Shown piece after piece: positions 718-20,364 of a stretch of DNA of 21,765 bases. The notes beneath the pieces were generated by a model. It was not told the origin of the DNA. It saw only the letters and a program-made list of their open reading frames with translations, and made no database searches. The stretch is from Candidatus Tectimicrobiota bacterium (GTDB taxonomy: Bacteria; JACPSX01). Numbering within the stretch: position 1 is the stretch's first letter; each line of letters starts with the position of its first letter. Both the position numbers and the translations under genes were made by a program. The DNA is taken from the NCBI GenBank assembly GCA_016193065.1, contig JACPSX010000092.1, forward strand, positions 1 to 21,765, written 5' to 3'.

Positions 718-2574
718 TTGAGGATCAAGGGGTTTCATCAGAGCTTACGCTTCAAGGCAACTGCGGGGATCGTGGTGGCCGTCGTGGCCATCATGTCGAT
801 CTTCTACAGCTTCCAGGTTTTCGCCTTCCGCAACGAACTCATCAAGAACCTGAGGGACTCCAGCACCCACTACCTGAGCGATGTCATCAAGGGGAGCCTC
901 AAGCACGCCATGATCAACCGGGATCTGGGCGAGGCCCGCTACATCATCGAGACGGTCGGCAAACAACGGGGTGTGGACAACATCTTCCTGGTGGACAAGC
1001 GCGGAGAGATCATGATGTCCCCGGAGATGAGGAGGGTCGGGGAAATCCTCAACCTGAACGACTACACCTGCCAGATCTGCCACCAGTTCAGCCCCGAGGT
1101 GCGAAACAAAACCGTTATATATAAGGAAGAGAACGGCCAGCGCATCTTCCGCAACGTGAACCCCATCTTCAACGAGCCCGAGTGCTACGGCTGTCACAGC
1201 CCCCTGACCAAGGTCAATGGCGTCCTCATCACCGACTTCTCCATGGCCGACATTGAAAAGCAGATCGCCACGAAATTCAAAGAGGTTCTCCTGTCCATGG
1301 GGTTGATGATCATCACCTCGGTGATCGTCCTAAGCTTTTTGCTGAACCGCCTGGTGATCAACCGTCTGGAAAAGCTCGTGGGTCTCACGAAGTTCTTCGG
1401 TAAGGGGGATTTCGACAAGAAAGTTACAGGGGAAGGAGAAGACGAGATCGGTGTCCTGGCCGAATCCTTCAATGAGATGGCCGGCGCCCTGAAGCGCTCC
1501 ATCGAGATCCGGGACAAGAAAGAGCTTCTGGAGCGGGTGCTCGGCAACGTGCGCGAGTCCATCATCGTCATGGACCCCAACGGCACCATTCTCTTCTTCA
1601 GCCACGGGGCCGAGGAGATGCTGGGTTACGGCGCTCTGGAATTGACCGGTGAGCCGTACTCCTCCCGGGGAGAGGCGCAGGGTCAGGTCTGGAAGAGCGT
1701 CGAACGGGAGGGCTCCTTCCGGGGCGAGATCCAGCTTCTGCGCAAGAGCGGAGGAGCCTTCCCCGCCTTCGTGAACGTGAGCCATCTGCGAGACGAGCAC
1801 GACCACATCCTGGCCTACGTCGACATCACCTACGACCTGACCGAGGAGAAGAGCCGGGAATCCCTGCAAAAGCAGCTCATCCACTCCGAGCGCCTGGCCG
1901 CCACGGGGCAACTCGCCGCCGGCGTCGCTCACGAGATCAACAACCCCCTGGGCAACATCCTGCTTTACTCCAAGCTGGTCCTGGAGGAGATCTCCCCTCA
2001 GGACCCTCATTACAAGAACATCAACAAGATCGTGGACAACGTGGTGCGCAGCAAGAAAATCGTCTCGGACTTGTTGGATTACACCCGCAGCAGCGACACG
2101 GACAAGAAGCCTAACGATGTGAACCGGATCGTCCAGGCCGCCAACAGCATTCTGGCCAACGAGATCCGGATTAATAATGTGGAGTGCCACCTGCGCCTGC
2201 AGTCCGATCTCCCCCCGGTCATCTGCGACCGCAGCCAGATCCAACAGGTTCTGGTCAACGTCATGCAGAACTCCATCCAGGCCTTCCAGGCCGGAGGACG
2301 GATCGAGGTGATCACCCGGGCTCCGGATCCGGACTGGGTCGTCGTGACGGTCAGGGACAACGGGCCCGGCATCCCCAAGGCCCTGCAGTCCAAGGTGTTC
2401 GAACCCTTTTACACAACCAAGGACAATGGCACGGGTCTTGGCCTCTCCATCTGTTACGGGATCATTCAGAGGCACGGGGGGCACATCTGGATCGAAAGCG
2501 GCAACGGCGAGGGAGGGACGGCGGTGGTCTTTCGACTGCCGGTGGCGGCCAGCGTGGCTGCGGCACCCGTATAG
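718..2574 (+). CDS. Membrane sensor histidine kinase with two haem-c motifs, HAMP and PAS domains
   Basis: This 618-residue sensor kinase should autophosphorylate and pass phosphate to the regulator encoded 12 bp downstream. Domains in order: first membrane helix about residues 16-36; extracytoplasmic sensor about 37-185 with CQICH (C118, C121, H122) and CYGCH (C156, C159, H160); second helix about 190-210; HAMP about 210-262; PAS about 270-375; HisKA with H405 in the motif AHEINNPLGN; and an ATPase domain with an N-box (NVMQNSIQAF), G1 (DNGPGIP) and G2 (GTGLGLSI). The CxxCH pairs imply covalent haem c outside the membrane, so the signal may be redox state or a haem ligand; that is inference. 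The start is TTG at 718 with only a weak upstream AGG, so the exact start is uncertain. The family assignment is secure. Confidence 0.93.
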   Translation: MRIKGFHQSLRFKATAGIVVAVVAIMSIFYSFQVFAFRNELIKNLRDSSTHYLSDVIKGSLKHAMINRDLGEARYIIETVGKQRGVDNIFLVDKRGEIMMSPEMRRVGEILNLNDYTCQICHQFSPEVRNKTVIYKEENGQRIFRNVNPIFNEPECYGCHSPLTKVNGVLITDFSMADIEKQIATKFKEVLLSMGLMIITSVIVLSFLLNRLVINRLEKLVGLTKFFGKGDFDKKVTGEGEDEIGVLAESFNEMAGALKRSIEIRDKKELLERVLGNVRESIIVMDPNGTILFFSHGAEEMLGYGALELTGEPYSSRGEAQGQVWKSVEREGSFRGEIQLLRKSGGAFPAFVNVSHLRDEHDHILAYVDITYDLTEEKSRESLQKQLIHSERLAATGQLAAGVAHEINNPLGNILLYSKLVLEEISPQDPHYKNINKIVDNVVRSKKIVSDLLDYTRSSDTDKKPNDVNRIVQAANSILANEIRINNVECHLRLQSDLPPVICDRSQIQQVLVNVMQNSIQAFQAGGRIEVITRAPDPDWVVVTVRDNGPGIPKALQSKVFEPFYTTKDNGTGLGLSICYGIIQRHGGHIWIESGNGEGGTAVVFRLPVAASVAAAPV

Positions 2575-2586
2575 AGGGAAAAGTTC

Positions 2587-3969
2587 ATGGAACTGCCCCG
2601 CAAGCGCATCCTGATCGTGGACGACGAGGAAGACACCCGGGACGCCTGCACCCAGGCCCTCAAGAAAGAGAACTACGAGGTTGTGACCTGCAGCAACGGC
2701 TTCGAGGCCCTCGAGCGCTTCCGGACGGATGCTTTTGACATTGTCGTGGCCGACATCAAGATGCCCAGGATGAGCGGCATCGAGCTCCTGAGATCCCTCC
2801 ACAAGATCGATCCCCAACTGGCGGTCATCATGATCACGGGTTACGCCGACGTGGACACGGCAGTGGAATCCATGCGGGAGGGGGCCGTGGACTACGTCCC
2901 CAAGCCCTTCACTCCCGACGAGCTGCGGCTGGTGATCAAGAACGCACTGGAGCGCCAGCACCTCCTTCAGGAAAACCGGGCTCTCAAGGAAGCCCTGCGC
3001 CGTTCGGTGAATGCCGGGGAGATCATCGGCGAGAGCGAGCCCATCCAGAAAGTCCGCCAGCTCATCGACAAGGTGGCCGGCACCGACTCCACAGTTCTCA
3101 TCCTGGGGGAAACGGGAACCGGCAAGGAGCTCGTGGCCCGCCAGATCCATCAGAAGAGCAGCCGGGGCAACAGCCAGTTGGTGGTCGTCAACTGCGCCGC
3201 GATTCCGGCCGATCTTCTGGAAAGCGAGCTTTTCGGCCACGAGAAGGGCGCCTTCACGGGGGCCCTGCGCCGCAAAAAGGGGTTCTTCGAGCTGGCCGAC
3301 GGCGGCACCCTTTTCCTGGACGAGGTGGGGGACATGAGCGTCGATCTGCAGTCCAAGCTCATGCGGGCCTTGCAGGAGAGGGAGATCCAGCCCGTGGGGA
3401 GCGAGCGCAAGGTCTACGTGGACGTGCGCATCGTGGCGGCCACCAACCGGGACCTGAAGGACGCCATCCGCCGCGGCACTTTTCGGGAAGACCTCTACTA
3501 CCGCCTGAACGTCATGCCGATCGTGCTCCCTCCCCTGCGGGAGCGGCCGGGGGATATTTCCCTGCTGGCCGATTATTTTCTCGGGAAGTACAACGCCGAT
3601 CTGAAAAAACGAGTGAGAGGGTTCACCCCGGGGGCCCGCGCCCTTCTGGAAAGCTACCCGTGGCCCGGAAACGTCCGTGAGCTGGAAAACGCCGTCGAGC
3701 GAGCCGTGATCCTCAACGAGGGGGAGATGATTACGGTGGACAGCTTCAGCCAGCTCAGCAGCGAAGCGGCGCCCGCCTCAGCGGCTGCAGGAGATGGGGC
3801 CAAGGAAGTGAACCGATACCCCTCTCTCAAGAAGGTCGAGCAGGACTACATCCTCGAGGTGCTGCAGGCCACCCGCTGGAACCGCAAGAAAGCTTCCGAG
3901 ATCCTCGGGATCAGCACCGTGACCCTGTGGCGCAAGATTGAGGAGAGACAAAAAGACATTAAAGAATGA
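2587..3969 (+). CDS. NtrC-family sigma-54-dependent response regulator
   Basis: This 460-residue cytoplasmic transcription activator is the likely partner of the preceding kinase. An N-terminal receiver domain (about 1-120) has the acidic pair D12/D13, phosphoacceptor D56 (VVADIKMP) and the conserved lysine in PKPF. The central AAA+ domain (about 140-370) has Walker A GETGTGKE from G174, the sigma-54-contacting GAFTGA motif at residues 221-226, and Walker B GGTLFLDEVGD. The C-terminus carries a Fis-type helix-turn-helix (ASEILGISTVTLWRKI). Length and layout are normal for AtoC/ZraR-like regulators. The promoter at 4091-4106, just downstream, has the -24/-12 form this protein class activates, so the operon from 4141 is its probable target. 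TGAAA at 3967 and TTTCA at 3992 form a weak inverted pair that might be a binding site. Confidence 0.95.
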   Translation: MELPRKRILIVDDEEDTRDACTQALKKENYEVVTCSNGFEALERFRTDAFDIVVADIKMPRMSGIELLRSLHKIDPQLAVIMITGYADVDTAVESMREGAVDYVPKPFTPDELRLVIKNALERQHLLQENRALKEALRRSVNAGEIIGESEPIQKVRQLIDKVAGTDSTVLILGETGTGKELVARQIHQKSSRGNSQLVVVNCAAIPADLLESELFGHEKGAFTGALRRKKGFFELADGGTLFLDEVGDMSVDLQSKLMRALQEREIQPVGSERKVYVDVRIVAATNRDLKDAIRRGTFREDLYYRLNVMPIVLPPLRERPGDISLLADYFLGKYNADLKKRVRGFTPGARALLESYPWPGNVRELENAVERAVILNEGEMITVDSFSQLSSEAAPASAAAGDGAKEVNRYPSLKKVEQDYILEVLQATRWNRKKASEILGISTVTLWRKIEERQKDIKE

Positions 3970-4090
3970 AATGATCCCTTGCAAGAATTCGTTTCACTTT
4001 TGTTGTTCCTTCCTCTCCAAATTTCCTGAGCAACCTTCCGACCCTCAGACACCCCAGCAAATATAAGGCATTGGCAGATTCCCTTCCCCG

Positions 4091-4106
4091 TGGCACGCAA
4101 CCTGCA
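4091..4106 (+). promoter_or_regulatory. Sigma-54 (-24/-12) promoter of the molybdoenzyme operon
   Basis: The sequence reads TGGCACG-CAAC-CTGCA. It matches the sigma-54 consensus TGGCACR-N4-TTGCW at every defined position but one, and keeps the invariant GG and GC dinucleotides 10 bp apart. The expected transcription start is near 4117, followed by a strong ribosome-binding site and ATG at 4141. It lies 121 bp after the sigma-54 activator gene, which makes a functional link likely. It also argues against an upstream GTG start at 4090 for the next gene. Confidence 0.8.
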
Positions 4107-4140
4107 CTTCTCTCCGGCAACACTCATAGAGGAAGGGCTC

Positions 4141-4572
4141 ATGAACGGATTGATGGATCTCCTCGGGAAAAAGTTCTTCTCCAGGGGCAGCGGCGATACG
4201 GGAAGGCCGGAGGTCCGGCGCATCCTGCTCGTTCACAACGAGCAGGACCAGTGCGAGTCCCTCACGGACTTCCTGGAAGAGGAAGGCTACCGGGTCTCCC
4301 GCACCCGCCAGGGCCGCAAGGCCGTCTCCATGGTTCTCAACGGAGGAGTGGACGCGGTCATCATCAAGGGGAAGCTGCTGGATCTTTCCGGATACGAAGT
4401 AGCTTCCATCGTGCGCCGGCTCGACCCCGAGATCCGTGTGATTCTCACTGTGGGCGACGAGTCGGAACTTTACGGTGGCGAAAGAGAGCAAGTGGATTTC
4501 TTCCCGTGCCTGCTCGAACCCTTCCAGCCGCGCCAGATTTTGCGGGCCCTGGAGGGGGGCGCACAGAAATAG
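4141..4572 (+). CDS. Degenerate receiver (pseudo-receiver) protein
   Basis: This 143-residue cytoplasmic protein has a CheY-like receiver fold at about residues 26-140. The usual chemistry is missing: the acidic pocket reads H32-N33-E34 instead of two aspartates, the phosphoacceptor position is K76 (AVIIKGKLLDLSGYEV, where DxxxPxxxG is normal), and the switch lysine of the KPF motif is glutamate (LLEPF). It is therefore unlikely to be phosphorylated and may act as a protein-interaction module. I chose the ATG at 4141 because AGAGGAAGGG lies just upstream; the in-frame GTG at 4090 would place the start within the sigma-54 promoter. It is the first gene of the respiratory operon, an unusual place for a receiver. 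Its role is unknown. Confidence 0.8.
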   Translation: MNGLMDLLGKKFFSRGSGDTGRPEVRRILLVHNEQDQCESLTDFLEEEGYRVSRTRQGRKAVSMVLNGGVDAVIIKGKLLDLSGYEVASIVRRLDPEIRVILTVGDESELYGGEREQVDFFPCLLEPFQPRQILRALEGGAQK

Positions 4573-4581
4573 GAGCGGGCC

Positions 4582-5037
4582 ATGAATCGACGAGCACTGC
4601 GTCTGCAACTGAAAATCGGCGCCGTCGCCGGTGCCGCGGCCTTTCTCTTCGTGGGAGTTCCCTGGGGAATATTTTACGGGGGCTCCTTCGGCCTGCTCTC
4701 GGCGGTCAGCATCATGGGCTCCCCCTTGCCGGAGCGCAGCGTCGTCACCCTCTTCGTGATCGGCGGCATGGCCCTCGGCGTGGCCGCGGCCTGCCTCTTC
4801 TGGCTGGCCGTAGGCTCCCTGGTCGCGCTGGCCGTGGGAACCGTCACCAAGCATCTCGTCAACAAATCCCTGGAGAGGATCGACTCGCGGGAAACTCTCG
4901 ACTCTGCAGATTCCTCCGGGCCCACCCCCTTCATTATCGGGCTCAGGACTGTGCAGCACTTCTTTTCCTCTGAGGACACCCCAAGGGTTCAGAGTCCTGC
5001 GGAGACCATGAAAGGAGGAACCGGTGACCTGGCTTAA
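4582..5037 (+). CDS. Membrane protein with two predicted helices, unknown function
   Basis: This 151-residue protein starts at an ATG preceded by AGGAGCGGGCC. Hydrophobic stretches at about residues 12-45 (rich in Gly and Ala, possibly a helical hairpin or a helix plus re-entrant segment) and 56-87 predict inner-membrane insertion. The C-terminal third (about 95-151) is hydrophilic and probably cytoplasmic. I do not recognise a family. It sits between the pseudo-receiver and the Fe-S subunit, and its 3' end overlaps the next small gene by 14 bp, so it is co-transcribed and probably translationally coupled. An assembly or accessory role for the respiratory complex is plausible inference only. 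Confidence 0.75.
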   Translation: MNRRALRLQLKIGAVAGAAAFLFVGVPWGIFYGGSFGLLSAVSIMGSPLPERSVVTLFVIGGMALGVAAACLFWLAVGSLVALAVGTVTKHLVNKSLERIDSRETLDSADSSGPTPFIIGLRTVQHFFSSEDTPRVQSPAETMKGGTGDLA

Positions 5038-5146
5038 ACTCTTCTTGATGTACGGCGGAATCTTGTTTGCGGTGGCGCTGTTTGCCGCCTGGAGCTGGCA
5101 CGCATCCGGCGGGCAGGGGAAGAACCTTTCTGAAAAAGGGAAGTAA
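5024..5146 (+). CDS. 40-residue single-pass membrane peptide
   Basis: A GTG at 5024 opens a 40-codon frame ending in TAA at 5144-5146. AAAGGAGG at 5011-5018, six bases upstream, is one of the strongest ribosome-binding sites in the operon, and it lies inside the end of the preceding gene. The peptide begins MTWLKLFLMYGGILFAVALF, giving one hydrophobic helix at about residues 4-24, followed by a short polar tail rich in Gly and Lys. The next gene starts two bases after the stop. Small single-helix subunits are common in membrane oxidoreductases, so a structural subunit of the NrfD-containing complex is a reasonable guess. I do not recognise a family. Confidence 0.7.
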   Translation: MTWLKLFLMYGGILFAVALFAAWSWHASGGQGKNLSEKGK

Positions 5147-5148
5147 TC

Positions 5149-5754
5149 GTGGAAGGTAACGGCTCCCGCAAGAAAGGCAAACGCTACGCCATGCTCATTG
5201 ACTTGAGGCGCTGCCTGGGCTGCCACTCCTGCGCGGTGGCCTGCAAGAGTGAAAACGACGTTCCCCTGGGAGTCTACCGGACCTGGGTCAAGATCGTGGA
5301 GAAGGGGTCCTACCCCAACGTGCGCCGGGTCTTCGTCCCCAGCCTGTGCAATAACTGCGAGCGCCCCGTGTGCCTGAGCGTGTGCCCGGTGAAAGCGACT
5401 TACCGCAGGCCTGACGGCATCGTCATGATCGACGAGCACCGCTGCATCGGCTGCAAGTACTGCATGGCCGCCTGCCCTTACGATGCCCGGCACGTGAACC
5501 CGATCAAGAAGATCGTGCAAAAGTGCTACTTCTGCTTCCACCGGGTGGACGCCGGGCTGGTTCCGGCCTGTGTGAACACCTGCCCCGGCGGGGCCCGCGT
5601 GTTCGGTGACGTGAACGACCCCGAAAGCGAGATCTCCCGCCTGATCGCCACGAACCCAGTCCAGGTCCTCAAGCCCGAGAAGGGGACCGAGCCCCGGGTC
5701 TACTACATCGGACTCGATGAGATGGCCGCCAAGGCAAAGGTAGAGGAAGCCTGA
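5149..5754 (+). CDS. Electron-transfer Fe-S subunit of a PSR/DMSO-reductase-type complex, four [4Fe-4S] clusters
   Basis: This 201-residue protein starts at GTG, with AAGGGAAG upstream. It carries sixteen cysteines in four ferredoxin-type sets: C22/C25/C28/C32, C67/C70/C75/C79, C99/C102/C105/C109 and C126/C129/C141/C145. This is the standard arrangement of the PsrB/PhsB/TtrB/NrfC family. It should relay electrons between the NrfD-type membrane subunit and the molybdopterin subunit. It has no signal peptide of its own; in this family the subunit usually crosses the membrane bound to the Tat-exported catalytic partner encoded at 7678. It is separated by one base from the next gene. The family is certain; the exact enzyme is not. 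Confidence 0.93.
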   Translation: MEGNGSRKKGKRYAMLIDLRRCLGCHSCAVACKSENDVPLGVYRTWVKIVEKGSYPNVRRVFVPSLCNNCERPVCLSVCPVKATYRRPDGIVMIDEHRCIGCKYCMAACPYDARHVNPIKKIVQKCYFCFHRVDAGLVPACVNTCPGGARVFGDVNDPESEISRLIATNPVQVLKPEKGTEPRVYYIGLDEMAAKAKVEEA

Positions 5755-5755
5755 G

Positions 5756-6655
5756 ATGATCGAAGTCCAGACGATTTACAACGTCCCTTACGGAGAGGCA
5801 TTGGGGGTCCCCATCGCCGTCTACTTTTACCTCACGGGTCTCAGCGCGGGCTCCTTTATCCTGTCCACCCTGGCCTACGGTTTCGGCATGGCCAGGTACA
5901 AGCCCCTGGGGAAGATCGGCGTCGTGCTGGCAACCCTGCTCCTGGTCGTGGCCCCCGTGAACCTGATGATCGACCTGGAGCAGCCCTGGCGCTTCTGGGA
6001 GCTCTTCTACTACATCAACCTCACTTCTGCCATCTCCTGGGGCTCGTTCCTGCTCACCCTCTACCCGATCAACTGCGTGATCTACGGCACCTTCATGTTC
6101 ATGGGAAAAGCCCGGCTCACGAAAATTTTTGGTCTCATCGGCATCCCGCTGGCCCTGTCGGTGCACGGCTACACGGGCTTCATCCTGGCCCTGGCCAAGG
6201 CCCGCATTTTGTGGAACACGGCCTTGATGCCTTTCATCTTTCTGGTGTCGGCCATGGTTTCCGGAATCGCCATGATGATCCTGGTGGCGATCGTCCGGGA
6301 CAAATACTTCAGCGCCGAGCGCAAGATTAACATGGACCTCATCAACGGCCTGGTGGTCATGTTGATCGGATCCATCGTGGCCGATCTCACTCTGATCGGC
6401 ACGGACATCCTCGTTCTTTTGAACTCCCACGACGAAGCCTACGAGGCCGCGCAACTGATCCTCACAGGGGCCTTCCGAAATATCTTCCTGGGAGGCGAGA
6501 TTTTCCTGGGGGCGCTGATCCCCCTGGCTCTCTTGAGCAACCGCATCACCCGGACTCCCTTTGGCATCACGGTGGCCTCGGTCCTGGTCATGATCGGAAT
6601 TTTCGCCATGCGCTACACCATGGTGATCGGCGGACAGGCGATTCCCCAACATTGA
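5756..6655 (+). CDS. NrfD/PsrC-family quinone-interacting membrane subunit
   Basis: This 299-residue protein has about eight hydrophobic helices spread over its full length and the family-typical start (EALGVPIAVYFYLTGLSAGS) followed by a conserved turn with LEQPWRFWELFYY. NrfD/PsrC proteins anchor the Fe-S and molybdopterin subunits and exchange electrons with quinol or quinone in the membrane, sometimes with proton translocation. The ATG at 5756 follows the stop of the Fe-S gene by one base, so the two are translationally coupled. Length is normal for the shorter eight-helix PsrC type. Nothing in the sequence separates quinol oxidation from quinone reduction. Confidence 0.92.
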   Translation: MIEVQTIYNVPYGEALGVPIAVYFYLTGLSAGSFILSTLAYGFGMARYKPLGKIGVVLATLLLVVAPVNLMIDLEQPWRFWELFYYINLTSAISWGSFLLTLYPINCVIYGTFMFMGKARLTKIFGLIGIPLALSVHGYTGFILALAKARILWNTALMPFIFLVSAMVSGIAMMILVAIVRDKYFSAERKINMDLINGLVVMLIGSIVADLTLIGTDILVLLNSHDEAYEAAQLILTGAFRNIFLGGEIFLGALIPLALLSNRITRTPFGITVASVLVMIGIFAMRYTMVIGGQAIPQH

Positions 6656-6682
6656 GCTATAAACCACGCAAGGAGGAACTGA

Positions 6683-7675
6683 ATGATGGAATCGAGTACC
6701 AAGCAAGAGATCCGGCGCGCTGCCAAGAGACAGCAGGATGAGTTTGAGGCCCAGAAGATCCGGGCCGGTACACTGCGCCCGAATCTCCTCTCGGCCACCT
6801 TGTTTATCCTATGCGCCCTGGCGGGAGTGGGGGCGTTCGTCCTCACCAACAACCCGATCCCCACCGGGATCCTGCTGGTGGCGGGCGTGTTCATCCTTCT
6901 GGCTCTGAAGGTCGCAGCTCAGTGGGAGCGGGCTATCGTCCTGCGCCTGGGGAGATTCCACCGGATGGCGGGCCCGGGACTTTTCATCATTTTTCCCTTG
7001 ATCGACACGATCCCCTACTGGATTGACCTGCGGCTAACCGCTACCGGCTTCCGGGCCGAGGAAACCTTGACCAAAGACAACGTCCCCGTGGACGTGGACG
7101 CCGTCTGCTTCTGGAAAGTCGTCAACCCTGAAAAAGCGGCACTGGAAGTCACCGACTACTACGACGTGATCAGTTGGGCATCTCAGACGGCTCTGCGGGA
7201 TGTGATCGGCAAGAGCGAGCTCTCCGATATGCTCGTGGGGCGTGAGAATATCGACGAGCAGATCAAGAACCTCATTGACAAGCGCACCGACGGCTGGGGC
7301 CTTCAGGTCCTCTCCGTCGAAATCCGGGACGTGATCATCCCGGCCTCTCTCCAGGACGCCCTGTCGATCCAGGCCCAGGCAGAGAGAGAGCGTCAGGCCC
7401 GGGTTATCCTCGGACGATCGGAGACTCAGATTGCCCAGATGTTCGCCGAGGCAGCCGAATCCTACAAGGATAATCCCACGGCCCTTCACCTGCGAGCCAT
7501 GAACATGCTCTACGAAGGCCTCAAGGAGAAGGGCTCCATGGTCATCGTTCCGAGCTCGGCCGTAGAGACCATGGGGCTGGGAGCTCTCATGGGAGTGACC
7601 GCTCTCAATAAGATCACCAACGGCGGCAACGATGAAAAGACGGACGGCAACGGCAGCCATCCAGCGAGTGAATAA
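6683..7675 (+). CDS. SPFH/band-7 protein of the slipin (stomatin-like) type
   Basis: This 330-residue protein follows AAGGAGG. Two adjacent hydrophobic segments (about residues 32-55 and 60-78) form a membrane hairpin. The band-7 domain (about 79-240) has the typical WERAIVLRLGRFHRMAGPGL entry, IDLR, the VPVDVDAVCFWKV strand and the QTALRDVIGKSELSDML helix. A coiled, Ala/Glu-rich stretch (about 235-280) and a hydrophilic tail follow. Slipins oligomerise in the inner membrane and are linked to membrane microdomains and protein quality control, often beside an NfeD gene, which is absent here. Placement between the membrane subunit and the catalytic subunit of a molybdoenzyme is unusual and suggests a scaffold or assembly role; that is inference. 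Confidence 0.9.
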   Translation: MMESSTKQEIRRAAKRQQDEFEAQKIRAGTLRPNLLSATLFILCALAGVGAFVLTNNPIPTGILLVAGVFILLALKVAAQWERAIVLRLGRFHRMAGPGLFIIFPLIDTIPYWIDLRLTATGFRAEETLTKDNVPVDVDAVCFWKVVNPEKAALEVTDYYDVISWASQTALRDVIGKSELSDMLVGRENIDEQIKNLIDKRTDGWGLQVLSVEIRDVIIPASLQDALSIQAQAERERQARVILGRSETQIAQMFAEAAESYKDNPTALHLRAMNMLYEGLKEKGSMVIVPSSAVETMGLGALMGVTALNKITNGGNDEKTDGNGSHPASE

Positions 7676-7677
7676 CG

Positions 7678-9936
7678 ATGATTGATCGCAGAGGGTTTAT
7701 CAAAGTTGGGGTCGGCGGGGCGGGAATGCTGGCCCTGGGGGAAATGCTCCCCCTGGCCAGCCTCGGCCAGGAGCTCAAGCCCGGGGGTGAGGGGGTCTCG
7801 CGCACCACGGGCAAGTCCCGGGTGGCTATCCCCAGCACCTGCTTTCAATGCGCGGCGGGCTGCGGCATCCTGGGCTATGTGGACACGAGCTCCGGGCGGC
7901 TGGTGAAAATCGAGGGAAACCCGTTGCACCCGAACAACCGGGGCAAGCTCTGCGCCCGGGGCCAGGCCGGCACCAATCTGGTCTCCAATCCGGACCGCCT
8001 CCTGTTCCCCCTCAAGCGCGCGGGCAAGCGCGGGGAGATGCGCTGGGAGCAGATTTCCTGGGAGCAGGCAATTCAGGAGATCTCGACAAAGCTCCAGGAT
8101 CTCAAGAAGAAAGGGCAGGCGGACCGCTTCATCCTGCAGGGAAATTTCAAGGCCAAGGAGAATGCCACGCTGAACTTCGTGCGGCGCTTCCTGCACGCCT
8201 ACGGAGCATCTTCGGACACGTTGGAAACTTCCCTGGGAGGCGCCAGCCGGGAAACTGCCTCGCTCCTCACCTACGGTGAAGACGTGGTGATTCCCGACAT
8301 CGGCCGCAGCAAGTACATCCTCAACTTTGGAGGCAATCCTTACGAGGCCTACCTTTTTCATCTGCCCCTCATCCAGCGCCTCAACGAGGCTCGCCTGAAC
8401 GGCGCCCGTCTGGTCACCTTCGACGTGCGCATCTCGAACACCTCGGGGCGCAGCGATGAGTGGTACCCGATCACTCCGGGCTCCGACAGCTTGGTGGCCA
8501 TGGCCATGGCCCGCACGATCATCGAGGAAGGACTGCACGACCGGGAGTTTTTAGAAAAGTGGACCAATTTCCCCCTGGTCCATCTGCGCCGCCACCTGGA
8601 GCCTTACACACCTGAAGCCGCCGAAAAGGTCAGCGGAGTGCCGGCAGCGGTGATCCGGCGGCTGGCCCGCGAGTTCGCCACCACCCGGCCGGCGGTGACG
8701 CTTACGGGACGCGGGGTTTCCATGCGGCAACAGGGAACACAGAACGAGCGCTGCATCGCGCTCTTAAACGCCGTGGTGGGCAACATCGACGTGCCCGGCG
8801 GCTCCTGTTTCCCCAGGCGGGCCGAGATCCCGGACCTTTCTCCAATGCCTTCCAAAACCGGCCGGACATCCCCCTTCCGCCACAACAACCTGTTCCCGGA
8901 CATTGCCCGAGGGAAGATCAAGGTCGGAGTCTACGTGGCCTACACTGCCAACCCCGTTTACGCCTCTCCCGACTCGGGGACCATTACCGAGATCCTCAAA
9001 AATGAGAGGCTCATTCCCTACTCGATCGCAGTGGACACGTTCATGAGCGAGACCGCGATCCTGTGCGACCTGGTGCTGCCCGACGCCACCTACCTTGAGC
9101 GCTGGGATCTGGAATCAGGCCCCAGCTTCGAGCTGGTCCCGTACGTGAGTTTGCGCCAGCCCCTTGTCGCACCTCCTCCCAAGGTAAAGCCATTTACCGA
9201 GGTGTGCCTGGAGCTGGCGCGCCAGATTCCCGGGGTCGAGCCGTTTTTCCCCTACCGGAGTTTCGAGGACTACCTGGAGAAGGTGGTGCAGAGGATCGAC
9301 GGCCTGGCCCGGGCCGGCGGGTTTGAAACCCTGAAGCAAAAAGGGGTGTGGTTTGACGAGAAGGCGAAACCCCGCTTCCGGCAGTACCGGGAAAAAGGGT
9401 TCAAGACCGCCTCGCGCCGCTTCGAAGTCTACTCCGAAGCCATGCACCGCCAGGGGTTCGCGGGCTTGCCCAGCTATGAGCCCGAAAAAAACGGGCGCAC
9501 GAACGGCCGCCTCATGCTCGCCACCTTCAAGGGGAACGTGCGCGGGGGCTCGCGCACCGCGCCCTGTAAATGGCTCGCCGAGATCCAGCACGACAACCCC
9601 CTGTGGCTCCATCCCCAAACGGCCGCGGCGCTGAACGTGCGCGAGGGGGATCGGGTGCACCTGAAGACGGCGAACGGCACGGTGACCCAGAAGGTGCGCA
9701 TCAGCCAGGGGGTTCACCCCCAAGTGGTCGCCTGCTCGGAAGGGTTCGGCCACTGGGGACACGGCCGCATTGCCCGGGGCAAGCGCTTCAAGAGCAGCGA
9801 CCCGGACACCCGTCTGGTCTGGTGGGAGGGGCACGGCAGCGGAGTGTATCTAAATGCCATCGTCCCTAAGAAAGAAGACCCGGTGAGCCAGGAATATGCC
9901 TGGATGGAAACCGAAGTCGAAGTAGCCAAAGTCTAG
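7678..9936 (+). CDS. Tat-exported molybdopterin (Mo-bisPGD) oxidoreductase catalytic subunit, PSR/PHS-like
   Basis: This 752-residue protein has a twin-arginine signal (DRRGFIKVGVGGAGMLALG), so it acts on the periplasmic side. The N-terminal [4Fe-4S] motif is C55-x2-C58-x3-C62...C92 (KLCARGQAG). The central molybdopterin domains and the C-terminal dinucleotide-binding domain (NPLWLHPQTAAALNVREGDR) are complete, and length is normal for polysulfide/thiosulfate-reductase relatives. The region that normally carries the Mo-ligating Cys or Sec instead reads LETSLGGASRETA (from L182), with serines (S185, S190) but no cysteine. The metal may be ligated by serine or by no protein side chain. The gene overlaps nothing, but its ATG lies two bases past the slipin stop. 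The substrate is unknown; sulfur compounds, oxyanions, or oxidation of an electron donor are all possible. Confidence 0.9.
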   Translation: MIDRRGFIKVGVGGAGMLALGEMLPLASLGQELKPGGEGVSRTTGKSRVAIPSTCFQCAAGCGILGYVDTSSGRLVKIEGNPLHPNNRGKLCARGQAGTNLVSNPDRLLFPLKRAGKRGEMRWEQISWEQAIQEISTKLQDLKKKGQADRFILQGNFKAKENATLNFVRRFLHAYGASSDTLETSLGGASRETASLLTYGEDVVIPDIGRSKYILNFGGNPYEAYLFHLPLIQRLNEARLNGARLVTFDVRISNTSGRSDEWYPITPGSDSLVAMAMARTIIEEGLHDREFLEKWTNFPLVHLRRHLEPYTPEAAEKVSGVPAAVIRRLAREFATTRPAVTLTGRGVSMRQQGTQNERCIALLNAVVGNIDVPGGSCFPRRAEIPDLSPMPSKTGRTSPFRHNNLFPDIARGKIKVGVYVAYTANPVYASPDSGTITEILKNERLIPYSIAVDTFMSETAILCDLVLPDATYLERWDLESGPSFELVPYVSLRQPLVAPPPKVKPFTEVCLELARQIPGVEPFFPYRSFEDYLEKVVQRIDGLARAGGFETLKQKGVWFDEKAKPRFRQYREKGFKTASRRFEVYSEAMHRQGFAGLPSYEPEKNGRTNGRLMLATFKGNVRGGSRTAPCKWLAEIQHDNPLWLHPQTAAALNVREGDRVHLKTANGTVTQKVRISQGVHPQVVACSEGFGHWGHGRIARGKRFKSSDPDTRLVWWEGHGSGVYLNAIVPKKEDPVSQEYAWMETEVEVAKV

Positions 9937-9946
9937 GGAGAAAAAA

Positions 9947-10513
9947 ATGAACCTTCACATCCCTCACCGCTGGCGCGGTCCTATCCTCCTGGGAGGAGTG
10001 GCCGCGGTGGTTTTCGGCATAGTCGGTACTCTGTCCCTGATCCGCTACTCCTCCGGCAACCCCAGCTTCTGCCTGACCTGCCACGGCCAGGGACCCACCG
10101 CGCTGGCCGTCTCCAACACGGGGCATACTGCCAAGATCCCCTGCATCGGCTGCCACGGCAAGGCCAAGTTCCCCATCGCCCAGGGCTTCCCCCAGAGCTT
10201 CTCAGCAGACCCCGCGGACGTGGATAAGAAGTGCCACAGTTGCCACAAAGAAGTGGGAGATGGCGAGCCCCGGGTCATGCGAGCAAATGTACAAGGGATC
10301 AACATCCCCCACAAGCTCCACGTGAGCGGCATGGGAGTCGCCTGCGTGCAGTGTCACGTGAACATCGCCCACGACGCCAAGGCCCAGCCCACGAACCGGC
10401 CTCCCATGGCGGTCTGTTCCAGTTGCCACAATGTCCAGGAAAAATGCGATAGCTGTCACCGCAAGGAGCCCACGGCCATGGCTCCGGCAGGCTCAGGCGG
10501 ATCGGCGGGGTAG
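9947..10513 (+). CDS. Membrane-anchored hexahaem cytochrome c
   Basis: This 188-residue protein starts at an ATG after GGGAG. An uncleaved N-terminal helix (about residues 11-32, preceded by basic residues) anchors it with the bulk in the periplasm, as in NapC/NrfH-like cytochromes. Six CxxCH motifs begin at C42, C66, C96, C133, C157 and C167; further histidines (H60, H122, H125, H142) could be distal ligands. It closes the operon and probably carries electrons between the NrfD/Fe-S/molybdopterin complex and a periplasmic partner. The tail after the sixth haem is a short Ala/Gly/Ser stretch. The last 30 or so codons reappear in two repeats at 14245 and 17306. The exact cytochrome subfamily is uncertain. 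Confidence 0.9.
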   Translation: MNLHIPHRWRGPILLGGVAAVVFGIVGTLSLIRYSSGNPSFCLTCHGQGPTALAVSNTGHTAKIPCIGCHGKAKFPIAQGFPQSFSADPADVDKKCHSCHKEVGDGEPRVMRANVQGINIPHKLHVSGMGVACVQCHVNIAHDAKAQPTNRPPMAVCSSCHNVQEKCDSCHRKEPTAMAPAGSGGSAG

Positions 10514-12463: not shown

Positions 12464-12795
12464 GGCAATCCTCCTTTCCATGGATAGGCTGCAGCCTTTT
12501 GCAGCCCTCACGCTAGGCCCCAGATACCACAACGGACGTTGACAGACAGATGCCGGGCCCGGCAACCGATCCTCCGGGCTGCGGAGCGCTCCCGGATCGG
12601 AGTTCAGGGCATACGGGCAGATCAACTGGGCCATCCCAGCTGCCCATCCAGCAGAAAGTGTTGGGCCGATGAAATTCAGGACTTCCGAAAACCGGCATAC
12701 CCTTGCCCCCCTCCAGGGACAGGAAGCCTATCCGGAGAACCACCAAAGAAATGACCTATGAGAATGCCGGATCTTACTTCGGGGTGGCGCGGGCG
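12464..12795. other. Intergenic stretch without a supported gene
   Basis: No frame here has a credible start and product. A GGCTGC/GCAGCC inverted pair (12487-12506) contains one CTGCAG site. The boundary at about 12796 is where the helicase fragment loses similarity to its family, so part of this stretch may be sequence joined on by the deletion. Confidence 0.45.
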
Positions 12796-13128
12796 TCAAG
12801 GAAAAATTCCCGCCCCAACAGGAACTTGGAAGGCAAGCTGCTTTAGCAGGAAGTCCCGAGGTGGATCAAAGTCTCCTCTGACCAGCCGCTCCCAGAGGTC
12901 CGGAACCGGTTCCAGGCGATCCAACGGGAAGGTCTCCAGCTTTTGCCCGTCCAGACCTTCAAAGACCACATCCGCCCGATAGAGTCCTAAGGATTTCGCG
13001 ACCCGGAGAACCTCTCCAACGCCGAGATCCGCCCGGCCGTAGATCCGAACCCGCTGGTTAACCCGGGGCATTATTGAGTTCACTATCTCTTCCAAAGTCT
13101 CTACGTTTCGATTACTCGTTGGGACCAC
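12796..13128 (-). pseudogene. N-terminal remnant of a SNF2-type helicase
   Basis: The 110-residue frame carries the N-terminal region of large SNF2-family helicases found in bacterial defence loci: VGEVLRVAKSLGLYRADVVF, the LETFPLDRLEPVPDLWERL block and FDPPRDFLLKQLAFQ. In complete members these lead into the helicase core with Walker A. Here the frame stops nine residues later and no helicase motif follows in any frame, so at most about a tenth of the usual protein remains. The GTG at 13128 and first 20 or so residues may not be native, since they overlap the end of the PIN remnant. Family recognition is from memory of the motif pattern. Confidence 0.6.
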
Positions 13129-13285
13129 TCAGTGCGTCAAGAAAGGCGCGGGCTCGAATCACAGAGATGCCAGCAAATGTTCCCAGACCCAGAAGGTGGT
13201 GATCGCCAGAGACGATATACGTGGCTCCGGAGACCTGAGCCGTTTCAAGGAATTTATCGATGTTGGTGTCCAGGACAACCTTCAC
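13112..13285 (-). pseudogene. PIN-domain toxin with internal in-frame deletion
   Basis: The GTG at 13285 opens a 57-residue frame: MKVVLDTNI, then directly DKFLETAQVSGATYIVSGDH and HLLGLGTFAGISVIRARAFL. Intact PIN-family toxins of this type (about 130-140 residues) start with the VLDTN strand and end with the DDKFLE...ADYIVSGDxHLL block, with some 70-80 residues between. The middle, including the second conserved acidic position, is missing, while both ends stay in frame. It should be inactive as an RNase. Its start overlaps the stop of the antitoxin-like gene as in an intact operon (TAAGTG). Confidence 0.75.
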
Positions 13286-13525
13286 TTAAGCGCCCGCGTG
13301 GAGAATTTCATCTACCAGTGCCTCGCGCTCTTCCTCCGTAAGTCGGGAAAAGTCCAGTCCTCGGTCGCGGCAGATGGTCTCAATCTTTTCCCGGTTTCGA
13401 TCCACCAGACGGTCGAGCCTTTCCAGGCCGCCAATAAGCTTGGCGAGTGCGAGCCGTCTGGCCGCCGGAGAAAGCTGCTCCAGGGCAATCAGAATTTGCT
13501 CCTCGTTTACCTCAATCTTCGGCAT
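13286..13525 (-). CDS. Antitoxin-like protein paired with PIN toxin
   Basis: The ATG at 13525, after GGAGGAGACA, gives 79 residues; an ATG four codons earlier (13537) is possible but would include the ribosome-binding site. The protein is helical and charged (ILIALEQLSPAARRLALAKL at about residues 10-29), ending with a LTEEEREALVDEIL motif. Short proteins of this pattern commonly precede PIN-type toxins and are taken as their antitoxins. The reading frame is intact although the toxin beside it is not. It has no clear DNA-binding domain that I can point to. Confidence 0.65.
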   Translation of the reverse strand: MPKIEVNEEQILIALEQLSPAARRLALAKLIGGLERLDRLVDRNREKIETICRDRGLDFSRLTEEEREALVDEILHAGA

Positions 13526-13611
13526 TGTCTCCTCCATATCTCACCGAGGGCGCTTTGACCAAGCGCCTGGAGAATAAGTCAGAAGTCAATTTGCCCTCGT
13601 CAGGAATGAGC

Positions 13612-13800
13612 CTACGGATGTACCATCCAACTGATGAATCGTAACTGTATATCCGGCTTGCCTGGCCCGATGCCGCTTGCCGCGCATTCCGCTTGCGAAA
13701 TCATATTCGGCACGCATCCCGTTATCTTTCCTTCGGGCCGCGTTAGGCGGTACTTTAGGAAGCGCCGGGCCTTGTGGATCAAGCCTTTCCGTTCAATCAT
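13612..13800 (-). pseudogene. HEPN-domain toxin, truncated after about 16 residues
   Basis: The frame begins MIERKGLIHKARRFLK, the usual start of HEPN proteins paired with MNT nucleotidyltransferases (normally continuing with SAELLL..., about 130 residues, and the RxxxxH active site). After K16 (near 13753) the sequence changes to an unrelated, low-complexity translation that stops at 13612. The catalytic part is therefore lost. Its ATG overlaps the MNT stop as ATGA (13800-13797), as in a working operon. Confidence 0.65.
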
Positions 13801-14153
13801 GCGGCCTTACCTTCCCGGCGCACGTTGCGCCAGAAAGGGCCGTCGCCGTTCTTGAAAGTCCGTTCATGTACGGGGAGAACCGACAGGAGCACTCCGTATC
13901 GCAGGTTAAAATCGGCCAGCAGGTCGGCAATCCGGTCAATCTCTTTTGAAGGCCGGATCTCCCCCCGCAGGATCAACAAAAGGTCAACGTCTGATTCATC
14001 GTGAGCCCGACCGCGGGCCTGGGAGCCATAAAACCAGAGGTTCACAAAGTTTCCCCCATATCGTTCTTTGAGTGCATGCGCAAGCTCCCGAAGAATCTCC
14101 TTGAGAGATGGCCGGCTACTCTTCACGTGCCTGGATCTTGCCACAACAAGCAT
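13797..14153 (-). CDS. MNT-domain nucleotidyltransferase (antitoxin of a HEPN/MNT pair)
   Basis: This 118-residue cytoplasmic protein has the minimal nucleotidyltransferase signature GSQARGR (from G43) followed by SDVDLLLIL with catalytic-type aspartates D55 and D57. MNT antitoxins neutralise HEPN RNases, in characterised cases by adenylylating them. The frame looks intact and of normal length. A GTG at 14126 is an alternative start, since the run of G before the ATG at 14153 leaves no proper spacing. The HEPN gene that follows in the same operon is cut off, leaving this an orphan antitoxin. Confidence 0.85.
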   Translation of the reverse strand: MLVVARSRHVKSSRPSLKEILRELAHALKERYGGNFVNLWFYGSQARGRAHDESDVDLLLILRGEIRPSKEIDRIADLLADFNLRYGVLLSVLPVHERTFKNGDGPFWRNVRREGKAA

Positions 14154-14244
14154 CCCCCCCTAGTGATGATCACTTCCCAACACGATTCCCGCAGCCGTCC
14201 GTTCCCACATTCCAACGAGGAACAATCTGCGAACATAATCCTTT

Positions 14245-14419
14245 GAAACAACTCTATTTCCTTGTCCACGCAATGTCAAGGCTGATTACCGCGGCCCTCT
14301 GCGGAGGAACTATGTGCCGCCATTTCGGTGGTCACAACGTCCAGGAGAGCTGCAAGAAATGCCACCGCAAGGAGCCCACGGCCCTGGCCCCTGCGGCATC
14401 GGGCAGTTCGGCGGGATAA
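14245..14419 (+). repeat. Direct repeat copy A containing a cytochrome gene tail
   Basis: These 175 bp align without gaps to 17306-17480, about 85 percent identical by eye. The left half begins GAAACAACTCTATTTCCTTG and has no counterpart in the cytochrome gene. The right half matches the 3' end of the hexahaem cytochrome gene, including 21 identical bases (10458-10478, 14363-14383 and 17424-17444). With copy B it brackets the restriction-modification genes in direct orientation. Confidence 0.85.
14273..14419 (+). pseudogene. Cytochrome c tail fragment with one CxxCH (possible mini-protein)
   Basis: The ATG at 14273 opens 48 residues: MSRLITAALCGGTMCRHFGG, then HNVQESCKKCHRKEPTALAP and a short tail. 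From HNVQE onward it parallels the end of the hexahaem cytochrome (HNVQEKCDSCHRKEPTAMAP). The position of the cytochrome's fifth haem motif (CSSCH) reads HFGGH here, so one haem site remains. No signal peptide and no clear ribosome-binding site are seen. The frame, length and stop are the same as in copy B, so expression is not excluded, but a duplicated gene tail is the simpler reading. Confidence 0.55.
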
Positions 14420-14851: not shown

Positions 14852-15754
14852 TCACGGGTAGGGCCCAAGGAATCGTTCTCCGTTGAAATGGATCATGTGG
14901 TCAGGCGCGTCCGCAACCCACACCTCAGTTTCCCACACAATCTCCCCCAGGTACTTGAGCAGCCCACGACGATCGAGGAAGGCAGTCACGAAGACCAGCC
15001 CTGCTCTGCTGCCCGAGAAGAGGGACTTCAATTCTGACAACCGCTTTGGGTTCACCGGCCCGTGGCTCGTCACGGCCTCAACCACGACAAGCCAGTTCTT
15101 GTCCGTATAGCGCACCACGACGTCTGGCATCTTGCCGTGTTCCCGAACAACGACACTCAGTGAGCGTAAGCCGTCCTCATCGAAGTAGGCCCACTTTTTC
15201 TTTGTGTCTCCCACATATAATGGCCTCGCGCTTGGTGTAAAGCGGGGGCAGAACTCGTCGATGATTTGGCGGACAAGCGCATTCTGCCCACCGGGCGACA
15301 GATCAATCGTCACCCCAGCAGCGAGGACGAGAGGGATACGGCGCATGCTTCGGGCCTGGGCGTAGCGCTGGGCAAGCGTCCGAATGTCCACAAGGTAGCG
15401 CCTCAGCGCGGCAACCCATTTCGTAGTTCCGAAGGTCCGGATGACTGCGAGCGCATGTGGCTCGATCTGGTAGCAATAGTTCGGGCTGTTTGTGGGTCGG
15501 TCAGGCTCATCGGGATTCGCAACAACCAATCCTGCTTGTTCAAATTGATGGAGGGTAAACCGCCGAACGGTCTCGCGTGTGTTTGGTGCCCACTTCTTTC
15601 GGTAGTGCTTCGCTGCGAACTCCATAATGGGCGTTACTCCCATCATGGGATTTGCTGCCTCCGACCAAGCCTTCGTCGGTGTGAGATCGACGAGGGCCAG
15701 CAGAGTGAGGGCGGCGCGAGCGCAAACCCAGCGTGTCAACAACCACAGCGTCAA
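14852..15754 (-). CDS. BsuBI/PstI-family type II restriction endonuclease
   Basis: This 300-residue protein carries the family's N-terminal segment (TLLALVDLTPTKAWSEAANP, GVTPIMEFAAKHY, RPTNSPNYCYQIEP) and C-terminal nuclease domain: GKMPDVVV (P210, D211), WLVVVEAVTSHGPVNPKR (E226), RAGLVFVTAF and WETEVWVADAPDHMIHFNGE. The family cleaves CTGCAG in known cases; the site here is only inferred. The start is unclear: the frame opens at TTG 15754 inside the methylase frame, and the first 13 or so residues look non-native. It appears 20-30 residues shorter than PstI at the N-terminus. The catalytic domain looks complete, so activity is possible. Confidence 0.88.
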   Translation of the reverse strand: MTLWLLTRWVCARAALTLLALVDLTPTKAWSEAANPMMGVTPIMEFAAKHYRKKWAPNTRETVRRFTLHQFEQAGLVVANPDEPDRPTNSPNYCYQIEPHALAVIRTFGTTKWVAALRRYLVDIRTLAQRYAQARSMRRIPLVLAAGVTIDLSPGGQNALVRQIIDEFCPRFTPSARPLYVGDTKKKWAYFDEDGLRSLSVVVREHGKMPDVVVRYTDKNWLVVVEAVTSHGPVNPKRLSELKSLFSGSRAGLVFVTAFLDRRGLLKYLGEIVWETEVWVADAPDHMIHFNGERFLGPYP

Positions 15755-17231
15755 GCGCGTCCTGGCTCGGGATGTTGCCCCGGAGCTTACGCCCCAGTTC
15801 GATCAAGGCGGCCCTTGTCGGATAGCGGAGGGAGCGAAGGTCGGCGGCGTTGACTTGAGTATGGCCGTTGAACTGGCGGAAGTACATGTCGAGAGGCGAA
15901 GAATTCAGAAAGGCAGACAGGCCCCAAGCCAGCAACCGTTCAAGCGCTGCGCCATGCTCATGGAAGTAGTTGAGGTGATTCTCAAAGCCCACGGCTTCAC
16001 AGGCAACAATGCGATCATCGAAAACAGCAGCCACGACTCGACGGCGCTCCTCCTTCGCGGAAAAGCGCTTGACGAGCACATATATTCCGGAAGGGACCGT
16101 AAGTGCTGCGCTGCTGCTGTTGTAAACGATGGCATTCGCTTTCTTGGTCGTCGGCTTCGGCCACTGGACGCCGCCGCCGTCGAAGTGGGTGGGATGGATG
16201 AGCGGAACGGTGTCCGCGCCGGGCTGTGAACGCAGCCAGCGACGAGCGCGAAAGTCCACAACGCGACCGGTACTCACCTCCAGCCCTAGATCGTCCAGCG
16301 TGCAGGGGAGTCTCTCCATGGCGTCGGCGACGGCTTGACCCTCGCGATCTAGGACGAGATGTATGAACGCTTGGGCATCACCAGGCCGGACAACACGTCG
16401 AAAGGGGACGGCTCGCTCTACGACATTCTGGTCCTCAGGGGTGCGGCTCCAGGAGATTCGAACGGTGCGTTCCTGACGGACCCCCTTGACGCCGTGAAGA
16501 ATCACGTTTTCCTGAAGCACGTCGTCGTCACGGAAGGGGTCGTCCCGGGATTCGAAAACGTGAACCCTCCTCAGGTTGACGTTGCTCAGGAGGTGCCTAC
16601 GAAACGGTCGAAAATACGGTCCGTTGCAGAAGCTTCTTGGCGTAATGGCGACGAGCTCTCCCTCATCGTCCAAGAGCATGACGACGAGGGCAAGAAAGGC
16701 CGTGTAAAGGTTGCTCGTTTCTACGCTGACACGGCGGAGGAGTTGACGGGGGCGGGACTCAGCCCGAAACTTCTTGTACGGCGGATTGAGGATCGCCAGA
16801 TCAAAGGCCAGAGACTCGGTGGGAAAGAGGCCCTTGTCGAGAGCGCAGACAGCCGCTTCGATGAAGTCCTCTGCTCGCACCTCCCATTTGCAGGCTATGC
16901 CAACCTCGGCACACGCCCGCTCGCAGGCTGCTAATGTCTGCCGGAGTGGCGGCAGGAGGTCCTGATCTATCTCAAATGCAGTCAGAGCGACCTCCTCGGG
17001 ACGATGTGTGCGCGAGCATATTTCGGCCACCCAGGCTGCTGTCAGTGCTCCAGCTCCGGCGCCAGGATCAAGGAAACGAATGCGCTTACGTCGTGGATCG
17101 GCCAGGGAGGCCATGAAGCGGGCTGTCGTGGGAGGGGTGAAGAACTGCCCGAGGGTGCTTCGGCGCTTTGGATCGAGGGCGCGGCTAACTGCTCTCCTCG
17201 CCTTCTCAGCAGATACCAGTGGGTCCAACAT
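15540..17231 (-). CDS. N6-adenine DNA methyltransferase of a BsuBI/PstI-type system
   Basis: This modification enzyme should methylate adenine in the site cut by the neighbouring endonuclease. The ATG at 17231 follows CAGGGGCAAAC; a GTG at 17249 is less likely. From that start the AdoMet motif FLDPGAGAGAL lies near residue 55, the catalytic NPPY at 149-152, and a target-recognition domain follows. The family-like part ends at VVVDTLGL (about residue 503, near 15723), close to the 507-residue length of M.PstI. The frame then runs on for 60 residues that are just the endonuclease gene read in another frame. This suggests that the native stop was lost by a deletion. Confidence 0.88.
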   Translation of the reverse strand: MLDPLVSAEKARRAVSRALDPKRRSTLGQFFTPPTTARFMASLADPRRKRIRFLDPGAGAGALTAAWVAEICSRTHRPEEVALTAFEIDQDLLPPLRQTLAACERACAEVGIACKWEVRAEDFIEAAVCALDKGLFPTESLAFDLAILNPPYKKFRAESRPRQLLRRVSVETSNLYTAFLALVVMLLDDEGELVAITPRSFCNGPYFRPFRRHLLSNVNLRRVHVFESRDDPFRDDDVLQENVILHGVKGVRQERTVRISWSRTPEDQNVVERAVPFRRVVRPGDAQAFIHLVLDREGQAVADAMERLPCTLDDLGLEVSTGRVVDFRARRWLRSQPGADTVPLIHPTHFDGGGVQWPKPTTKKANAIVYNSSSAALTVPSGIYVLVKRFSAKEERRRVVAAVFDDRIVACEAVGFENHLNYFHEHGAALERLLAWGLSAFLNSSPLDMYFRQFNGHTQVNAADLRSLRYPTRAALIELGRKLRGNIPSQDALDAVVVDTLGLRSRRPHSAGPRRSHTDEGLVGGSKSHDGSNAHYGVRSEALPKEVGTKHTRDRSAVYPPSI

Positions 17232-17305
17232 GTTTGCCCCTGAATTCACCGGGAGGTAGCCCCATCAGCCCACCAAGAGTATAGGACGAAAGCCCCGCCT
17301 CATCT

Positions 17306-18569: not shown

Positions 18570-19215
18570 ATATATCAGCCAGGTTGCACACCCCCTCTTA
18601 TTAGAGCTGCTCGCACATTCGAAACCTGATATTACCCCCTTGGATCAGTCCCTTGGGAACAACCTAGGCTGCTACCAGGGGCGGGGTGCTCGTTGACTTC
18701 ACTAACTGCCTCGGAGGGCCAGGGGATACCGGCTCCTTTTGGGGTGTGGGGCAAAAAACTAAAGGGCCTCAACCCCCAAAACTGCGATACCTTTCTCAGG
18801 TTACTTTTGCGCGCCTGTTTAGGTCCTACACTCCAAACAAAACCAACGCTTGAATACCAATCTATTGAAGCAACTCTATTTCTTTAGCCGGCCAATGTCA
18901 AGGCCAGGCAGTGATGATCACGAAGCCCTCGGGCTCGCCCCCAAAACAAAATCTTTTATTTACAAGTAGACTGCAAGACCGGTAGAATAAAAAGTCAGTT
19001 TCCCATACAAGAACAGGCCAGGCCGGGATTGCACTTATCACCCTTAACCAAGAAGGGGACAAACCTAGTGCCACATTCCTCCCTGGCAAAGCTCCAGAGG
19101 CGAATTTCCTACCTGGCTCAAGGGTCGATGTGGGCCTTCGCATCCTGGAATGCTTCCTGGGGCCCGAAAGAGATTAAGAGAAAAGGAAAACGCTAACCCA
19201 ACTCGTAGGAGACAA
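18570..19215. other. Gene-poor stretch at the right end of the accessory region
   Basis: No credible coding frame is seen on either strand. The stretch contains the 38-bp partial repeat at 18867-18904 and is noticeably less GC-rich than the genes after 19216. It must also carry the promoter of the operon starting at 19216, which I could not identify with confidence. Confidence 0.45.
18867..18904 (+). repeat. Partial third copy (left end) of the 175-bp repeat
   Basis: GAAGCAACTCTATTTCTTTA, a variable 6-base block, then CAATGTCAAGGC match the first 38 bases of copies A and B with the same spacing. Similarity ends there; the cytochrome-derived half is absent. Confidence 0.7.
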
Positions 19216-20343: not shown

Positions 20344-20364
20344 AGGAAGGGAGGGTCCGAGGTC

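Follow-up and report, generated by a model that had tools for sequence, protein, structure and literature searches.

The kinase at the head of this locus carries an extracytoplasmic Cache domain that is related to the mono-haem Geobacter sensors GSU0935 and GSU0582 and is predicted to hold two haems c. It is followed by a sigma-54-dependent activator and by a sigma-54 promoter-like site in front of an operon for an NrfD-anchored complex. An earlier note had proposed this combination of predicted haem-c sensor kinase, sigma-54 activator and sigma-54 site heading the operon, and the same linkage was found to be kept in other genomes. The conservation of a Met residue and the gene context suggest redox sensing by ligand switching at a Met-ligated haem as the most likely function, with a rough probability of 0.55. 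The window, i.e., the whole stretch of DNA that was analysed, comprises 21,765 nt of Candidatus Tectimicrobiota bacterium (GCA_016193065.1, contig JACPSX010000092.1, positions 1-21,765 of the forward strand), and the assembly consists of 294 contigs with a completeness of 86%. A tRNA scan returned no match, and 16S rRNA was not found. The features of the locus are as follows.

718..2574 (+): sensor histidine kinase, 618 aa, with two TM helices, a two-haem Cache ectodomain (haems predicted), HAMP, PAS, HisKA and HATPase
1069..1083 (+): CQICH codons, residues 118-122 (site 1), an additional predicted haem site that GSU0935 does not have
1183..1197 (+): CYGCH codons, residues 156-160 (site 2), which align with the haem motif in GSU0935/GSU0582
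2587..3969 (+): NtrC-type sigma-54-dependent response regulator, 460 aa, GAFTGA at residue 221
4091..4106 (+): sigma-54 promoter-like site TGGCACGCAACCTGCA (-24/-12), predicted start near 4117
4141..4572 (+): pseudo-receiver, a stand-alone receiver-like protein of 143 aa with Lys in the position of the phosphoacceptor Asp
4582..5037 (+): small membrane protein without Pfam or NCBIfam match
5024..5146 (+): possible 40-aa single-TM protein with GTG start and AAAGGAGG upstream, read by eye
5149..5754 (+): 4Fe-4S subunit, TtrB/DsrO/PsrB-like
5756..6655 (+): NrfD/PsrC-like quinone-interacting membrane subunit
6683..7675 (+): SPFH/Band 7 protein with a close homologue at the L046 locus
7678..9936 (+): molybdopterin-oxidoreductase-family large subunit (MoA), TAT-like RRGFIK start, Gly187
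9947..10513 (+): hexahaem cytochrome c with NrfH-like N terminus

The kinase was read from a TTG start at 718, where the first residues of its closest relative align (MRIK/MGIK). HAMP (208-259), HisKA (397-458) and HATPase (504-610) domains were delimited and a PAS domain is also present. The CxxCH motifs that had been placed at residues 118-122 and 156-160 read CQICH and CYGCH, respectively. The AlphaFold2 model of the ectodomain (mean pLDDT 92) has a Cache fold between the two TM helices, in which the helix of site 1 (116-122) sits between strands 97-100 and 131-136 and site 2 is flanked by strands 142-151 and 166-175. Structural matches of this model were 5is1 (Z 13.3, 131 residues, 2.5 A), 4ywz, 1p0z and other Cache domains, and Foldseek matched it to 3b42 with an E value of 2e-5. 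GSU0935 was not among the 50 structural matches listed by VIA-align and was seen in the Foldseek and sequence searches only, probably scoring low in VIA-align because it is a domain-swapped dimer.

The sensor scored 24.0 bits against PF21563, below the cut-off of 27, and 43 of 59 related sensors matched this family at an E value of 0.01, with PF11845 matched by 6. Queried alone, it gave a weak match to GSU0582 (3b47, E 0.17). The profile of 59 sensors retrieved GSU0935 (3b42) at 1.3e-10 and GSU0582 at 4e-8, with their CxxCH aligned with site 2 and site 1 falling opposite a gap in GSU0935. Since site 1 thus lies in a stretch that GSU0935 and GSU0582 lack, the window sensor is a predicted two-haem variant, and if both motifs bind haem it would not be a typical haem-c Cache sensor.

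Relatives keep both CxxCH sites. Sixty-one related sensors from many unrelated genomes were collected, and since the queries were the window sensor itself and a profile of two-haem sensors, the motif proportions among them are biased. Two attachment motifs occurred in 47 of the 61, combining CxxCH with CX4CH in 36 and with a second CxxCH in 11, the window included. The remainder had CxxCH with CX3CH (2/61), site 1 only as judged by regular expression (2/61) or site 2 only (10/61). The 36 relatives with a single CxxCH were considered as mono-haem proteins and this was ruled out, as their site 2 is CX4CH. Cytochrome c3 provides the precedent for haem c attachment at CX4CH. A single scan of the contigs of the named genomes for close relatives recovered distant kinases only. 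The genome of the window was the sole representative of its phylum in the set searched, and its relatives therefore belong to other lineages.

Met65 and Cys156 were invariant in 59 of 59 sensors and His160 was kept in 57. In GSU0935, the haem motif is numbered Cys140, Cys143 and His144, and Met60 is the redox-labile axial ligand, which has been proposed to signal by leaving the haem on oxidation (PMC8396549). Met65 corresponds to this Met60 by counting along the profile alignment with the GSU0935 numbering of that paper, and it is the predicted distal ligand of haem 2 in the window sensor. Proteins for haem c assembly are encoded in the genome of the window.

The regulator consists of a receiver with its phosphoacceptor in VVADIKMP, a sigma-54 activation (AAA+) domain with GAFTGA and a Fis-type HTH, in agreement with the NtrC-type assignment and the GAFTGA motif of the earlier note. 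The GG-N10-GC promoter that it noted 121 bp downstream is also present, with GG at 4092-4093 and GC at 4104-4105, and 121 nt separate it from the stop codon of the regulator. The sequence at 4091-4106 was the sole match without mismatch to TGGCACGNNNNYTGCW within the window; it fits TGGCACG-N4-TTGCW and, under a sigma-54 matrix with approximate frequencies, reached a score of 17.2 of 18.7. Downstream of it lies the ATG at 4141, preceded by a good ribosome site, GAGGAAGG. A search of 3900-4300 for a sigma-70-like promoter or a terminator revealed none. The best palindrome in the 121-nt gap, sought as an upstream activator site, was no better than those of shuffles, and a search for an activator motif common to the window and L137 gave no convincing one.

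At least 15 sigma-54 activator genes are encoded in the genome of the window. Among the 14 with enough downstream sequence to be counted, 7 had a same-strand sigma-54 site scoring at least 13 within 600 bp downstream. Such a site occurred in 3.9% of random pieces (P 3e-7), and on the opposite strand one was near 1 of the 14. The gene rpoN was not found with PF04552 or PF04963, for which an assembly gap is the likely reason because the genome is incomplete. Contig C274 of this genome carries a haem kinase with site 2 only and an activator, and downstream of them lie a sigma-54 site (15.9) and a further MoA/Fe-S/NrfD operon. In L094 (contig C180), a very strong sigma-54 site (18.3) accompanies a stand-alone receiver gene (624-1193) downstream of an activator-kinase pair, which gives the receiver-first layout of the window with a different kinase. 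L090 (contig C97) encodes at 12691-14398 a protein homologous to the small membrane protein of 4582-5037 as well as a 7-CxxCH cytochrome, both of them behind a further kinase-activator pair that has a sigma-54-like site.

The window sensor forms a clade with those of L046, L137, L138, L139 and L147 (support 100/95), and all six have CxxCH at both sites as well as an adjoining sigma-54 activator gene. The loci L137, L138 and L139 begin with the kinase and activator genes, after which come a sigma-54-like site (15.0, 15.9 and 14.4, respectively) and a stand-alone receiver; in L137 and L139 a cytochrome, MoA, and Fe-S and/or NrfD genes follow. L046 shows kinase, activator, a weak site (10.5), receiver, an 11-haem cytochrome and, last on its contig, the close SPFH homologue (3e-105). 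L147 has a strong site (18.3) upstream of the enzyme operon, and the arrangement of the loci varies in that the kinase and activator genes close this operon. The receiver-like gene stands first in the window and in four related loci (L137, L138, L139 and L046). Its phosphoacceptor Asp is replaced in 4 of these 5 proteins, by Lys in the window and L137, by Ala in L138 and by Glu in L046; L139 keeps the Asp.

Of 54 related sensors in 27 genomes, 28 had an NrfD gene no more than 8 kb away against an expectation of 0.94, a significance that is only indicative as sensors from related genomes are not fully independent. Sensors of this kind adjoin quinone-linked electron-transfer operons far above chance, commonly together with sigma-54 activators. 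Short two-haem Cache proteins of about 224-340 aa were observed near haem kinases or Fe-S/NrfD genes in L158, L160, L161, L166 and L168. They are too short to be full kinases and possibly serve as sensor partners or electron carriers.

The operon at 4141-10513 had been described as a molybdoenzyme operon. Its large subunit does belong to the MoA family, but the name molybdoenzyme has to be qualified, as Gly187 aligns with Cys173, the Mo ligand of PsrA, and no Cys, Ser, Asp or Sec is found there. The MoA proteins of L137, L139 and L056 likewise have no Cys at this position. The window MoA is below every named-family cut-off, reaching 195 bits against 440 for NCBIfam QrcB, and the Fe-S subunit reaches 129 bits against 400 for QrcC. 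The MoA of L056 is above the QrcB cut-off with 470.6, and L137 has QrcA- and QrcC-like genes, of which the latter scores 288 against the cut-off of 400. QrcB contains no redox cofactor (PMC13059093). Because of Gly187, the Qrc likeness of L137 and L056 and the cofactor-free QrcB, the operon may make a Qrc-like quinone-cytochrome oxidoreductase and not a molybdoenzyme. An AioA-like Mo centre without a protein ligand is a possible alternative for the window MoA.

Further features were recorded in the rest of the window. At 14323-14419, 3.9 kb downstream, lies a diverged copy of the final 97 nt of the cytochrome gene (10417-10513) with the same CHRKEPTA.. reading and stop, which is probably a remnant of a second cytochrome or of recombination. 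An ordinary restriction-modification pair, a BsuBI/PstI-type restriction endonuclease and an Eco57I/N6-type DNA methyltransferase, occupies 14852-17249 (-). Tandem FAS1-like/MaoC dehydratase and amidohydrolase-2 genes at 19150-21225 are unrelated to the sensor.

We infer redox or ligand sensing because of the work on GSU0935/GSU0582 and on sCache_heme (PMC8396549, PMC12889525). In the reading that we prefer, redox sensing, the kinase would read the redox state of the extracytoplasmic compartment or of its cytochrome/menaquinone electron-transfer chain, with haem 2 (His160 and Met65) as the switch. On oxidation, Met65 would leave haem 2 and on reduction it would return, and its movement would shift the N-terminal helices and, by way of TM2 and HAMP, set autophosphorylation. 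Haem 1 (His122) would be an added cofactor and possibly the entry point of electrons to haem 2. The phosphorylated regulator would then activate sigma-54 polymerase at 4091-4106 and turn on the operon, whose product, an NrfD-anchored complex of the Psr or Qrc type, would link menaquinone to partners in the periplasm by electron exchange. As the first product of the operon, the pseudo-receiver may exert feedback on the kinase-regulator pair. More tentatively, two-haem Cache sensors may form a widespread "wired" class in which haem 1 receives electrons straight from periplasmic cytochromes or the quinone-linked complex and hands them on to haem 2. If so, the kinase would gauge electron-transport load and not a diffusible ligand, and would set the expression of NrfD-type complexes that feed or drain the pool.

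As the main alternative, a gas, chiefly NO, could be the signal, in that NO would displace Met65 from ferrous haem and so trigger the kinase, as has been proposed for sCache_heme domains fused to signalling modules. This proposal draws on the P. azotoformans sCache_heme, which binds NO with slow release and forms no stable O2 complex (PMC12889525), and on GSU0582 and GSU0935, in which NO and CO bind and replace Met60 (PMC8396549). However, those sensors studied by experiment carry one haem, the recurrent neighbours of the present family are NrfD, Fe-S and multihaem electron-transfer genes, and the window operon showed no recognisable NO-related enzyme. We regard NO sensing as less likely than redox sensing.

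It is more doubtful still that the kinase and activator are a genuine pair with their main target elsewhere, the site at 4091-4106 serving another activator or condition. The number of activators in the genome and the absence of an identified regulator binding site in the gap would be compatible with this, as would L147, where the regulators stand inside the operon and not ahead of it. Against it, the succession of regulator, sigma-54-like site and receiver is kept in L137, L138 and L139, and in L046 with a weaker site. Least probable is that the CxxCH motifs hold no haem and are disulfides, metal sites or relics in a Cache domain that binds a small molecule. Most Cache domains do bind small ligands, and haem in the window sensor is a prediction; yet the near-complete conservation of Cys156, Met65 and His160, the haem c bound in the homologues 3b42 and 3b47, the CxxCH/CX4CH variants that are typical of cytochromes and the haem c assembly encoded in the genome all argue for attachment.

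Precedents exist for one-haem Cache sensors, for sigma-54 two-component systems and for Psr/Qrc complexes, and haem-c Cache sensors were introduced as one-haem domains with NO-sensor properties (PMC12889525). In the literature searched, which covered few subscription journals, no description was found of two-haem Cache kinases, of their tie to sigma-54 activators and electron-transfer operons, or of the co-expressed pseudo-receiver. The window system is a candidate for how anaerobes tune periplasmic respiratory complexes to electron flow, and Met65 and CQICH offer concrete mutable handles.

With the GSU0935/GSU0582 type (PF21563; sCache_heme, PMC12889525), the window sensor shares a Cache domain between two TM helices with HAMP, the site 2 CxxCH, the axial Met (here predicted) and a signalling output. 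Unlike GSU0935, it has a second CxxCH 38 residues upstream, a histidine kinase in place of a chemoreceptor output and a score below the Pfam cut-off. NrfS-NrfR of Desulfovibrio, a sigma-54-dependent system for nitrite and nitrate reduction, is likewise a kinase and sigma-54 activator devoted to an adjoining respiratory operon (PMC5701242). The window target is a Psr/Qrc-like complex instead, and this comparison concerns the gene layout and target and not the NrfS sensor domain. AtoSC, ZraSR and NtrBC share the succession of receiver, AAA+ domain with GAFTGA and Fis HTH as well as activation from a -24/-12 site, whereas the window pair is below each of the named NCBIfam cut-offs and has a haem sensor (as predicted). 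Qrc and Psr/Phs of the CISM family resemble the operon product in their MoA-like large subunit, four-cluster-type Fe-S subunit, NrfD and hexahaem cytochrome, and QrcA has six haems. In contrast to these complexes, the window operon includes an SPFH protein and a pseudo-receiver, and its MoA falls below the named cut-offs with no Cys at the Mo-ligand position.
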